DNA of 64,000 bases from an uncultured Veillonellaceae bacterium (GTDB taxonomy: Bacteria > Bacillota > Negativicutes > Veillonellales > Veillonellaceae), in the NCBI GenBank assembly GCA_945867815.1, contig CAMBIX010000008.1:1-64000 (forward strand), given 5' to 3'. Made by a program: the position numbers and the translations under genes. The notes below the pieces were generated by a model. The model did no database searches, was not told the origin of the DNA, and saw only the letters and a program-made list of their open reading frames with translations. This document shows, piece by piece, positions 8,870 through 12,258 of the stretch; positions within the stretch are counted from its first letter, which is position 1; every line of letters begins with the position of its first letter.

Positions 8870-9000
8870 GGCACTGTAAGTTACTTATTCTTCTATTAGC
8901 TAATAATGATAAAGTTATTATTTACGAAGTTATATCTTAAAAGAGTCGTAATGAGGACAGGTGTGCTCGATAGTTAGTAGTGAATAATGGAGAGACTATC

Positions 9001-9564
9001 ATGACACCATCTATGGATTTTTTAATTGGTTATCATTGCGCACCAGTTATTCGAGCAATTAAAGTAGCTAATTTAATTGCTTTTCCTAAGACGAGCTTGT
9101 CTCAAGTTTGTCAACAAGTAAAGGCATATAATCACTATTTTAACAAGGCTGGTTTACATTTTTATGTGCTCTGTTCTTGTCCAAAACAACGCTTAGTACT
9201 TGTTTATAGAAGGCGAGAGTTAGCGGCTTTGTTAGGACAGGCATCCATTTCTTCTTTTTTGGAATCATATGGATATAAGGCAGAGGGTGTAGACCAAGCC
9301 TTACGGCAGTTACGTAAACGAGTGACAGAGAATCAAGAGTTTCCTCATGAGATTGGTATTTTTCTTGGTTATCCCTTATTGGATGTGCAATCTTTTATTC
9401 GCCAAAAGGGTAAGGGCTCTTGCCTGTGTGGTGAGTGGAAGGCTTATACGAATCAGTCTCTTGCGGCTTGGAAATTTTATTGTTATCGGATTTGCCGGCA
9501 ATATTGTTATCGACAGTTAGTGGCTGGTAAGTCTTTGGAATCGTTAGTTATAAAAGCAGCATAA
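9001..9564 (+). CDS. DUF3793 family protein
   Basis: Predicted cytoplasmic protein of 187 residues that I place in the DUF3793 family from its opening segment (DFLIGYHCAPVIRAIKVANLIAF, residues 5-27) and its position next to a flavodoxin. The function of the family is not known. It is Cys-rich, with CSCP near residue 55 and CLCGEW near 141, plus several C-terminal cysteines in a Tyr/Cys/Arg-rich stretch, which suggests metal or heme binding. An upstream in-frame GTG (8980) exists, but GGAGAG eight bases before the ATG at 9001 supports this start. The flavodoxin gene follows after 21 bp. Confidence 0.78.
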   Translation: MTPSMDFLIGYHCAPVIRAIKVANLIAFPKTSLSQVCQQVKAYNHYFNKAGLHFYVLCSCPKQRLVLVYRRRELAALLGQASISSFLESYGYKAEGVDQALRQLRKRVTENQEFPHEIGIFLGYPLLDVQSFIRQKGKGSCLCGEWKAYTNQSLAAWKFYCYRICRQYCYRQLVAGKSLESLVIKAA

Positions 9565-9585: not shown

Positions 9586-10005
9586 ATGGTAGGCGTATTT
9601 TATTGGTCAGGAACAGGTAACACAGAAGCTATGGCACAAGAAGTGGCCGCAGGTATTAAAGCCGCTGGACAAGATGTTGAGCTTAAATCGGTTTCAGAAA
9701 TTTCAGCAGAAGAAGCGGCTAAGTATGATAAGTTAGCCTTAGGTTGTGCTGATATGGGGGCCGAACAGTTAGAAGAAGGCGAATTTGAACCTTGGTATAC
9801 AGATTTAGAAAAAACTATTAGTGGCAAACAAGTTGTCTTGTTCGGCTCTTATGGCTGGGGTGGTACTTGGCTTGATGATTGGGCTGAACGCATTAAAGGA
9901 GCTGGTGCGTCTCTTGTGGCTGATCCAGTGGCTATTAATGGAGAAGCAGACGATGATGGTAAGGCAAAGTGCCAAGAGCTAGGTAAAGCTTTAGCTACTG
10001 CCTAA
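9586..10005 (+). CDS. Short-chain flavodoxin
   Basis: Small FMN-binding electron carrier of 139 residues. The phosphate loop is the N-terminal SGTGNTEAM (residues 8-16), and the aromatic FMN-binding loops are represented by GCADMGAEQLEEGEFEPW near 53-70 and GSYGWGGTWLDDW near 88-100. Flavodoxins can replace ferredoxin in low-potential electron transfer when iron is short. It has a strong AAGGAGG ribosome site and shares the promoter and Fur-like palindrome upstream of the DUF3793 gene. A bidirectional terminator follows at 10097-10129. Confidence 0.95.
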   Translation: MVGVFYWSGTGNTEAMAQEVAAGIKAAGQDVELKSVSEISAEEAAKYDKLALGCADMGAEQLEEGEFEPWYTDLEKTISGKQVVLFGSYGWGGTWLDDWAERIKGAGASLVADPVAINGEADDDGKAKCQELGKALATA

Positions 10006-10096
10006 TGATTTTGTTTTTTAGAGAAATAATATAGAATGTGAAGACTTATATAGTGGTTGTCTATTTATAGAGATAATTATATGATGTGAGTGAATA

Positions 10097-10129
10097 ATAA
10101 AAGCCGTGGCAGAGCGTCACGGCTTTTAT
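10097..10129. terminator. Bidirectional terminator after flavodoxin
   Basis: ATAAAAGCCGTG (10097-10108) pairs with CACGGCTTTTAT (10118-10129) across a 9-nt loop, with A-rich and T-rich flanks on either side. Confidence 0.9.
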
Positions 10130-10234
10130 TTATAGCTGATTCTTTTTATTTTATCCTTTCTCTTGCTTGCTATCTTCTGATGGTGTACGATTATCATAAG
10201 AAATGATAGACTCATGAAAGAAACGGAGTAGTGA

Positions 10235-11383
10235 ATGCGTGTGCTTTGTTCAGAACGATTTATAGTCACCTACCGATTAGGTGTAGATACTTACGAGGAA
10301 GCAAAAGCCTTAGCTTGGGCTGTGCAAATAGAACAGACAATAGAATTTCCTTATGAACTCGTTCAATCACAAGAGATTAAGGACCAGGTAGTTGGTCAAT
10401 TGGTGTCTTTGGAGGCCGTGGATAAGGGCTATTTAGCAAAGATTTCCTATGGCGTAGAATGTAGTGCCTTTGAAGTGACTCAGTTTATGAATGTCGTTTT
10501 CGGTAACTCGTCTTTGCAGCCTAATATTTGGGTGGAAGATATTGAATTGCCAGAGTCTTTAAAAAGACACTTTGGAGGCCCACGCTTTGGCTTGGCTGGT
10601 GTTCGTAAGCTCTGTCAGGTGCCTACACGGCCTATGATTCAAGCGGTAATTAAACCCATGGGGGTTACGGTAGGCCAATTGGAGCACATGTGTCGGGCGT
10701 ATACCCAAGGTGGTGTAGATGTGATTAAGGATGACCATGGGATTACGAATCAGCCTTTTTCTTCTTTTGAAGAACGTATTAAACGATGTGCTTCTGCTGT
10801 GCAAGAAGAAAATGCTAAAAGGGGTACACATACATTGTATGCAGCCAATGTGTCAGGGGATGGTATGGATGTATGGGAACGGGCTCATAAGGCAAAAGAA
10901 CTGGGGGCGACAGCACTTATGGTAGCACCAGGTCTTATTGGCTTTGGTTGGCTTAATACCCTGGCTAAGGCGGAATCCTTGCAGTTGCCTATTATTGTGC
11001 ATCCTTCTTTGTCAGGTGGCTATGTCTTGCCTGGTGTATCAGGTATTTCTATGAATGTTTGGCTAGGCCTTTTGCCACGTTTATTTGGCGGTGATATGGA
11101 TATTTTCGTTACCTATGGAGGTCGTTTTACTTTTACGACAGAGGCCTGCAAGGGTTTGCATGATAAGTTAAGTCAGCCTTGGACGGGGATAAAAGCGGCC
11201 TGTCCGTCGCCAGGTGGTGGAGTGACGGCTAAACGCCTGCCTGAGCTTATGGAACTCTATGGAAAAGATACTATGTTTTTAGTTGGTGGTGATATGTTCC
11301 GTCGAGGACCGGATTTGCAGGATAATATGAAATATTTTATTTCTTTGTTGGAAGATTATGATCGGGTTCATAAGGCCGAGTAG
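10235..11383 (+). CDS. RuBisCO-like protein (form IV type)
   Basis: A 382-residue member of the RuBisCO large-chain family that should not fix CO2. The fold signatures are present: AVIKPMG (138-143), GGVDVIKDDHG (159-169), IIVHPSLSGG (253-262), TYGGRFTF (293-300) and LVGGDMFRRG (349-358). Against true RuBisCO, by eye, the carbamylated lysine (K165) and an Asp (D167) are kept, but the following Glu is H168, the KPK motif reads KPM (M142), and the HRAMH region reads HPSLS. These changes mark a RuBisCO-like protein. Known relatives are enolases, isomerases or decarboxylases acting on methylthioribulose- or tetronate-type sugar phosphates; the reaction here is unknown. GGAG precedes the ATG, and larE starts 8 bp after the stop. 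Confidence 0.9.
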   Translation: MRVLCSERFIVTYRLGVDTYEEAKALAWAVQIEQTIEFPYELVQSQEIKDQVVGQLVSLEAVDKGYLAKISYGVECSAFEVTQFMNVVFGNSSLQPNIWVEDIELPESLKRHFGGPRFGLAGVRKLCQVPTRPMIQAVIKPMGVTVGQLEHMCRAYTQGGVDVIKDDHGITNQPFSSFEERIKRCASAVQEENAKRGTHTLYAANVSGDGMDVWERAHKAKELGATALMVAPGLIGFGWLNTLAKAESLQLPIIVHPSLSGGYVLPGVSGISMNVWLGLLPRLFGGDMDIFVTYGGRFTFTTEACKGLHDKLSQPWTGIKAACPSPGGGVTAKRLPELMELYGKDTMFLVGGDMFRRGPDLQDNMKYFISLLEDYDRVHKAE

Positions 11384-11391
11384 GTGAGATT

Positions 11392-12216
11392 ATGAGAGAT
11401 GAGTTAGTAGAGAAAGTTAATCAACTAGACAATGTATTGCGTCAAATGGGTAGCGTAGTCGTTGCTATGTCGGGGGGCGTCGATTCAACTTTTTTATCTG
11501 CGGCAGCACACAAGGCTTTAGGAGATAAGGCTTGTGCTTTTACCGTGAGTTCGCCGACGTTACCAGATAAAGAAATTGAAGATGCCAAAGTGTTTGCTAA
11601 ACAAATTGGCATTAGACATGTAGTTAAGGCTATAGATGAATTGGCCTTGCCTGATTTTGTAGTAAATAGCCCTAGACGGTGTTATTATTGCAAGAAAAAT
11701 CGTTTTTCGATTCTTTTAGATTGGGCTAAGCAGGAAGGCATTAAAGAAGTATTAGATGGGTCTAATGTAGATGATATGGGTGATTACAGGCCGGGTATGG
11801 AAGCCTTAGAAGAACTGGGCCGTGTACGTAGTCCTTTGTTGGAATTAGGCTTTACTAAGGCGGATATACGTGAGGTGGCTAAGGCCTGGCATTTACCTGT
11901 ATGGGATAAACCCAGTGCTCCTTGCTTAGCGTCACGAATTCCTTATGATACACCAATTACGGCAGAGGCTTTACGTATGGTGGGAGAAGGAGAAGCCTAT
12001 TTGCGTAGGTATCTTGACGCTCCTTTTCGGGTACGTTATCATGAAACGGTAGCGCGCTTAGAAGTGAGTGAAAGTGATATGTCGTTTTTCTTTGATGAGA
12101 CGCATAGAAAGGCTGTCATAAAAGCCTTTGAAGCGATTGGCTTTACTTATGTGAGTCTAGATTTAAAGGGTTTTGTTAGTGGTAGCTTAAATCGTACGAT
12201 ACAAAAAGACGAGTAA
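11392..12216 (+). CDS. larE: LarE-type ATP-dependent sulfur transferase
   Basis: PP-loop ATP pyrophosphatase of the LarE family, 274 residues. The PP-loop is SGGVDS at 27-32 (VVAMSGGVDSTFLSAA), and GSNVDDMGDYRPG near 123-135 is the LarE signature. The cysteines are C97 and C100 (PRRCYYCKKNR) and C178 (SAPCLASR). LarE of Lactobacillus has only the equivalent of C178 and sacrifices its sulfur to build the nickel-pincer cofactor; family members with all three cysteines bind a [4Fe-4S] cluster, and this protein matches that three-Cys type. No larA, larB or larC is in the window. It is coupled to the RuBisCO-like gene by an 8-bp gap. Confidence 0.88.
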   Translation: MRDELVEKVNQLDNVLRQMGSVVVAMSGGVDSTFLSAAAHKALGDKACAFTVSSPTLPDKEIEDAKVFAKQIGIRHVVKAIDELALPDFVVNSPRRCYYCKKNRFSILLDWAKQEGIKEVLDGSNVDDMGDYRPGMEALEELGRVRSPLLELGFTKADIREVAKAWHLPVWDKPSAPCLASRIPYDTPITAEALRMVGEGEAYLRRYLDAPFRVRYHETVARLEVSESDMSFFFDETHRKAVIKAFEAIGFTYVSLDLKGFVSGSLNRTIQKDE

Positions 12217-12232
12217 GAAAGTTATAGAAAGA

Positions 12233-12258
12233 AGCGAGATAGATTTATCTCGCTTTGT
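12233..12258 (+). terminator. Intrinsic terminator after larE
   Basis: AGCGAGATA (12233-12241) pairs with TATCTCGCT (12246-12254) and is followed by TTGTTT. The stem is short but G+C-rich, and it closes the RuBisCO-like/larE unit. The AGGAGG of the next gene begins about 12 bp later, so readthrough is possible. Confidence 0.7.

Follow-up and report, generated by a model that had tools for sequence, protein, structure and literature searches.

The window analysed here is a stretch of 64,000 nucleotides from an uncultured Veillonellaceae bacterium, and it belongs to contig C8 of a source genome of 1.97 Mb that is 99.66% complete. A gene for a RuBisCO-like protein (RLP) is followed directly by a gene for LarE, and the pair is enclosed by two hairpins:

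10096..10130, terminator-like hairpin upstream of the pair, with a perfect 13-nt inverted repeat, a 9-nt loop and a T-rich right arm
10235..11383, plus strand, RLP gene, 382 aa, assigned from PF00016, the tree and the closest structure, 3QFW
10727..10738, plus strand, KDDH codons (K165, D166, D167, H168) of the RuBisCO metal site, placed by alignment
11384..11391, 8-bp spacer that separates the stop codon of RLP from the start codon of LarE, read from the sequence
11392..12216, plus strand, LarE gene, 274 aa, assigned from TIGR00268, the conserved SGGVDS, C97/C100/C178 and RVR
12232..12255, terminator-like hairpin downstream of the pair, with a perfect 10-nt inverted repeat and a 4-nt loop

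Both reading frames, the gap and the inverted repeats agree with a first-pass annotation of this DNA, as do the two family assignments (PF00016 at 6e-27 for the RLP; TIGR00268 for LarE at 308 bits against a cut-off of 150) and the residues that it singled out, namely K140-P-M142, K165/D166/D167/H168 and HPSLS at 256-260 in the RLP and C97, C100 and C178 in LarE. Since inverted repeats stand on both sides, the pair plausibly forms its own transcription unit, in which the two genes would be co-transcribed. Upstream of the RLP gene, a DUF3793 gene (8980-9564 of the window) lies directly before a flavodoxin gene (9586-10005), and the same DUF3793-flavodoxin pair precedes the RLP gene in one relative as well (genome G013, locus L137).

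Among solved structures, 3QFW of R. palustris is the closest to the RLP by sequence (E 1e-71). It was also the best match of an AlphaFold2 model of the protein with a mean pLDDT of 92.9 (Foldseek E 6e-37; VIA-align Z 46.4, rmsd 1.7 over 349 residues), with other form IV and RuBisCO chains so close behind (Z 40-46) that the fold alone is not decisive for the RLP class. In a tree of 91 sequences, from which the R. rubrum sequence itself is absent, the window RLP shares a clade of 85 rows (support 100/97) with 3QFW and the Rhodopseudomonas RLPs, whose genes directly precede a cupin gene, while MtnW, OiaX and form I lie outside. Within this clade, the window RLP belongs to a Negativicutes group of 23 rows (100/99), which stands at sister level to the cupin-linked subclade (95/92) containing the characterised enzyme, and outside it. 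The characterised type is known from R. palustris RLP1 and its R. rubrum homologue, which convert 5-methylthioribulose-1-phosphate (MTRu-1P) to 1-methylthioxylulose-5-phosphate (MTXu-5P) in vivo and in vitro; the downstream cupin then frees methanethiol and leaves 1-deoxyxylulose-5-phosphate (DXP) (PMC5893883).

Comparison of the active sites placed the window RLP with this type. Form I, MtnW and OiaX carry Glu at position 168 (the motif of carboxylases and MtnW is KDDE); among the 85 clade members this residue is His in 72 and Gln in 13, with His in all 18 that have an adjacent MtxC-type cupin. At K140, K165, D167, H168, H256-P257 and R297 the window RLP is identical to all of these 18 cupin-linked members. 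The first-pass annotation had reported a changed active site, and the residues bear this out; its emphasis on H168 as a special feature does not hold, because this residue is common in the clade, so that the changed site marks a known clade rather than a private change. Compared with the DeepYkr RLP of R. rubrum and R. palustris RLP1, the protein has the same fold, length, KDDH, K140, H256-P and R297, and, as in those systems, the source genome encodes MtnA, MtnP, an MtxC-type cupin and Dxr. Unlike them, it is only 34-38% identical to the characterised type, has its own Negativicutes subclade, and is encoded beside LarE instead of the cupin; given the separate subclade and the level of identity, its substrate could differ. 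Judged by its sequence, the RLP is a DeepYkr-type form IV RuBisCO-like protein, and it is predicted to act as the 5-methylthioribulose-1-phosphate 1,3-isomerase of the MTA-isoprenoid shunt, an activity to which clade and gene context point. The methylthio-sugar substrate suggested in the first-pass annotation is thus likely, and the expectation that the protein should not carboxylate RuBP is in keeping with its form IV clade and with the replacement of the carboxylase residues.

The partners of such a shunt were searched for in 28 genomes of the family, which fall into four genus groups and include the source genome (G000). RLP is present in all 28, as are MtnA (above cut-off) and Dxr. A profile built from 14 cupins adjacent or fused to clade RLPs matched all 28 genomes at E of about 1e-53, separated by some fifty orders of magnitude from the next match, and 25 of its 26 invariant residues are kept in the three copies inspected, that of the source genome included. 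The latter is 47% identical to the Rhodopseudomonas cupin. Its gene does not adjoin the RLP gene in the source genome but has typA-like and heavy-metal-domain genes as neighbours on another contig; RLP-cupin adjacency, common in the group and not universal, is no strict requirement. The source genome also has an mtnP-mtnA-ahcY-deaminase cluster, of which the deaminase matches 5'-deoxyadenosine/MTA deaminase models under their cut-offs. In three genomes of genus g2, mtnP is absent from the mtnA locus. As MtnA, RLP, cupin and Dxr occur without exception, each family member has the genes that lead from MTRu-1P to DXP and beyond. Two clade members, a Desulfuromonas and a Chitinispirillaceae, have RLP-cupin fusion proteins (L101:7803-9563 and L107:5841-7487), which strongly supports the view that RLP and the MtxC-type cupin act in sequence. 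Veillonella and Dialister were listed in 2018 as carriers of RLP, cupin, MtnP and MtnA (PMC5893883); the pathway assignment is therefore not new, and what is new is its extension to the source genome and the consequences.

In the proposed pathway, MtnP would phosphorolyse MTA or its deaminated form to MTR-1P, which MtnA would convert to MTRu-1P. The RLP would then isomerise MTRu-1P to MTXu-5P, and the MtxC-type cupin would split MTXu-5P into methanethiol and DXP, which could enter isoprenoid synthesis via Dxr. Another reading, which we regard as unlikely, is that the RLP works mainly on 5-deoxyribulose-1-phosphate, derived from the 5'-deoxyadenosine of radical SAM enzymes, and yields DXP directly with no need of a cupin. 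By analogy, the same 1,3-isomerisation of that sugar phosphate would give DXP; enzymes of the MtnK/MtnA type accept 5-deoxyribose, and DrdK is equally efficient on both sugars (PMC6079011). Many clade RLP genes have mtnK and mtnA as neighbours and no cupin gene, some of these loci including class II aldolase and microcompartment genes, and the deaminase beside mtnA, as noted above, gives sub-cut-off matches to 5'-deoxyadenosine/MTA deaminase models. However, retention of the cupin in 28/28 genomes speaks for a methylthio sugar as a real substrate, and our literature search found no published RLP activity on 5-deoxyribulose-1-phosphate. Activity on this compound may be additional to the isomerisation of MTRu-1P rather than an alternative to it.

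The second gene of the pair encodes the only LarE match above cut-off in the source genome. Besides its score, the protein has the PP-loop, the CxxC-C cysteines and the phosphate-binding RxR of the family, the RVR pair aligning with the proposed phosphate-binding arginines. LarE of Thermotoga maritima, a [4Fe-4S]-dependent sulfur insertase, binds its cluster on C92, C95 and C172, and three such cysteines occur in most homologues (PMC9283937). The window protein shares the PP-loop SGGxDS and the CxxC-C pattern with it, C97, C100 and C178 matching these three cysteines; unlike in T. maritima, its gene adjoins an RLP gene, and those for LarB, LarC and LarA are scattered. The cluster-binding pattern noted in the first-pass annotation was thus recovered, whereas the idea of an unusual cluster form was rejected, as the three cysteines are the majority form (PMC9283937) and are also found in the LarEs of relatives' lar loci. 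We predict from these features that the window LarE is a [4Fe-4S]-type sulfur insertase for the nickel-pincer nucleotide cofactor, carrying its cluster on C97, C100 and C178 as in T. maritima LarE; together with LarB, LarC1 and LarC2, encoded elsewhere, it would make the cofactor for three LarA-family racemases.

No other lar gene lies near the pair, as the first-pass annotation had remarked, but all of them are found elsewhere in the same genome, on five contigs other than C8: larB-larC2 on C1, larC1 on C4, and larA homologues on C3, C12 and C9. The C3 LarA scores 668 bits against a cut-off of 460 for nickel-dependent lactate racemase. With the lar genes so dispersed, a LarE gene apart from the others is to be expected. 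Two features of these genes are recorded here in their own right. LarC of the source genome is divided between two genes on different contigs, LarC1 (C4 80279-80950; L002, L142; 277 aa), which has two cobT-like genes as neighbours, and LarC2 (C1 213531-213917; L003; 142 aa), which follows larB directly; relatives of the V. parvula type have LarC as a single ORF of about 430-450 aa. On contig C9 (L165:3979-6516), one 845-aa frame runs without a stop from DNA polymerase IV (DinB) into a LarAH10-family racemase, whose Met is preceded by a ribosome-site-like sequence; a lost stop, a true fusion or a sequence error is possible.

The distribution of the lar genes accounts for LarE. LarE above cut-off was found in 16/28 genomes, LarC1, LarB and LarA in 16/28 each, and the 16 genomes are identical for LarE, LarA, LarB and LarC (G000, G007, G008, G010, G013-G016, G020-G027), so that presence and absence agree in 28/28. 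The chance of one pair of profiles matching in this way is 1 in 30 million (28 choose 16) if kinship is ignored; with kinship allowed for, the RLP tree requires no fewer than 4 changes of the lar set. The presence of LarE, which tracks LarABC, is thus explained by the nickel-pincer pathway, and the RLPs of 12 genomes do without any LarE.

These data bear directly on the proposal of the first-pass annotation that a sulfur-transfer step couples the two proteins, LarE giving sulfur to an RLP-linked thio-sugar or thio-cofactor pathway so that the pair is one functional unit. The genes are indeed 8 bp apart with hairpins on either side, this LarE is the genome's only one, and the two adjoin each other in 10/28 genomes of the family as well as in two Negativicutes further away, Megasphaera paucivorans and an uncultured Veillonellaceae. 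However, LarE adjoins RLP in only 10 of the 16 LarE genomes; in the other six it is encoded elsewhere, within a lar locus that was seen directly in four. In the three regions read (the second copy of G013, G015 and G016), larA accompanies it, joined in G015 and G016 by larB and larC. The RLPs of G015 and G019 are identical in sequence, and the lar set is present in G015 and wholly missing from G019. SGGVDS, C97/C100, C178 and the RVR substrate-phosphate residues are kept alike in RLP-linked and lar-linked LarE copies. All three observations that the annotation had named as speaking against such a step were made: the genes are often unlinked in relatives, LarB, LarC1, LarC2 and three LarA are in the genome, and the RLP clusters with the DeepYkr type, in which the isomerisation known from characterised members has no need of LarE (PMC5893883). 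LarE as sulfur donor of the RLP was rejected on this phyletic profile, and we consider a joint function highly improbable. The still weaker reading of the RLP as a true RuBisCO or an MtnW-type enolase has in its favour the common fold and matches to the NCBIfam MtnW models, but it is scarcely tenable, since the scores are far from the cut-offs (165 and 206 bits against 513.6 and 409 for MtnW; 124-133 against 438-497 for the carboxylase models), KDDH stands for KDDE, with H168 in place of the metal-site Glu, and HPS for HRA, and MtnW and form I form no part of the 85-row clade. With MtnW (MtnW/YkrW, the 2,3-diketo-5-methylthiopentyl-1-phosphate enolase) the RLP has the fold and an MTA-salvage context in common. 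OiaX, the 3-oxo-isoapionate-4-phosphate decarboxylase, was likewise rejected: it shares the form IV fold, and the RLP scores only 86 bits against its cut-off of 700, OiaX being a separate deep branch outside the clade.

We therefore hold it very probable that one small transcription unit combines two unrelated functions, a DeepYkr-type MTRu-1P 1,3-isomerase and a nickel-pincer LarE. The clade, the active-site signature, the presence of all the named genes in the genome and the co-inheritance of LarE with LarABC are its support at the level of sequence, and from these we infer the reactions themselves and an adjacency without joint function. Its recurrence in M. paucivorans and the uncultured Veillonellaceae indicates that the arrangement may be old and not accidental, and common regulation without common chemistry is possible. 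The pairing itself is of little consequence beyond correcting a tempting but wrong functional link. More weight attaches to the finding that every genome of the family has Dxr and, from MtnA onwards, the genes of the shunt, while the presence of dxs varies.

Full-length dxs matches were found in 16/28 genomes (G000, G008-G012, G015, G016, G018, G021-G027). The search with the dxs model gave no full-length dxs in the other 12, which include the single-contig G014 and G019, the complete V. parvula SKV38 among them. What the dxs model matches in these genomes is a split transketolase, in its two halves, and this was discounted as a hidden dxs since it is present in all 28 genomes; a DXP-forming side activity of this transketolase is possible. 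PRK12315 is the subfamily of the dxs genes that were examined (824 and 879 bits against 510), and one of the two falls under the cut-off of the main dxs model. A divergent MerR-type regulator lies beside both examined copies and also in G009. In G015, merR-dxs is located between rpsR and a 244-aa ORF, and the same site holds neither gene in G019 and other genes in G014. With at least 7 changes on the tree, dxs, where examined, looks like an accessory cassette. The set of genomes with dxs differs from that with lar genes, so the two losses are separate stories. In G012, the dxs frame is broken in two (contig C3 214562-216285; 388 + 209 aa), which fits either a gene that is still decaying or a sequencing error.

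If the members that lack dxs have to make DXP, their gene content points to the RLP-cupin route as the obvious source. It is conceivable, and we advance it tentatively, that in these 12 members MtnA-RLP-cupin is the only source of DXP, so that all isoprenoids would derive from a by-product of SAM, namely MTA and perhaps 5'-deoxyadenosine too, the RLP would be essential, and dxs, where present, would be an optional extra. Should the shunt be such an obligate source, an essential pathway of common human commensals would rest on a relative of RuBisCO, and isoprenoid synthesis would inevitably release methanethiol as a by-product. A 2023 survey counted 181 bacterial species that have the methylerythritol pathway but lack Dxs; it put forward the MTA-isoprenoid shunt only for the few of these that have both genes, 5/181, Veillonella being unnamed in its main text (PMC10663253). 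The idea that dxs-less species use the shunt was thus already raised there in general form, and the present suggestion may be partly anticipated in that work.

Other members of the 85-row clade occur in different gene contexts. The Nitrospira RLPs form a tight group (L099, L102, L104-L106, L118-L120, L122, L123, L125, L126), and no cupin was found beside them. In many phyla, the gene for a clade RLP immediately follows that of a transketolase, split or fused, and mtnK and mtnA are often present as well (L064, L066, L069, L071, L075, L077, L080, L082, L083, L085, L086, L088, L090, L166). This suggests C2 transfer as another fate of the isomerised sugar phosphate, on which our literature search found no paper. 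In three loci of Lachnospiraceae/Oscillospiraceae (L076, L078, L084), the RLP gene lies beside a sugar ABC transporter, mtnK, mtnA and a class II aldolase, together with genes for an aldehyde dehydrogenase, a PduL-type PTAC, EutN/CcmL and BMC shell proteins, the Pfam names having been checked for L076. These loci possibly encode a microcompartment for methylthioribose or 5-deoxyribose.
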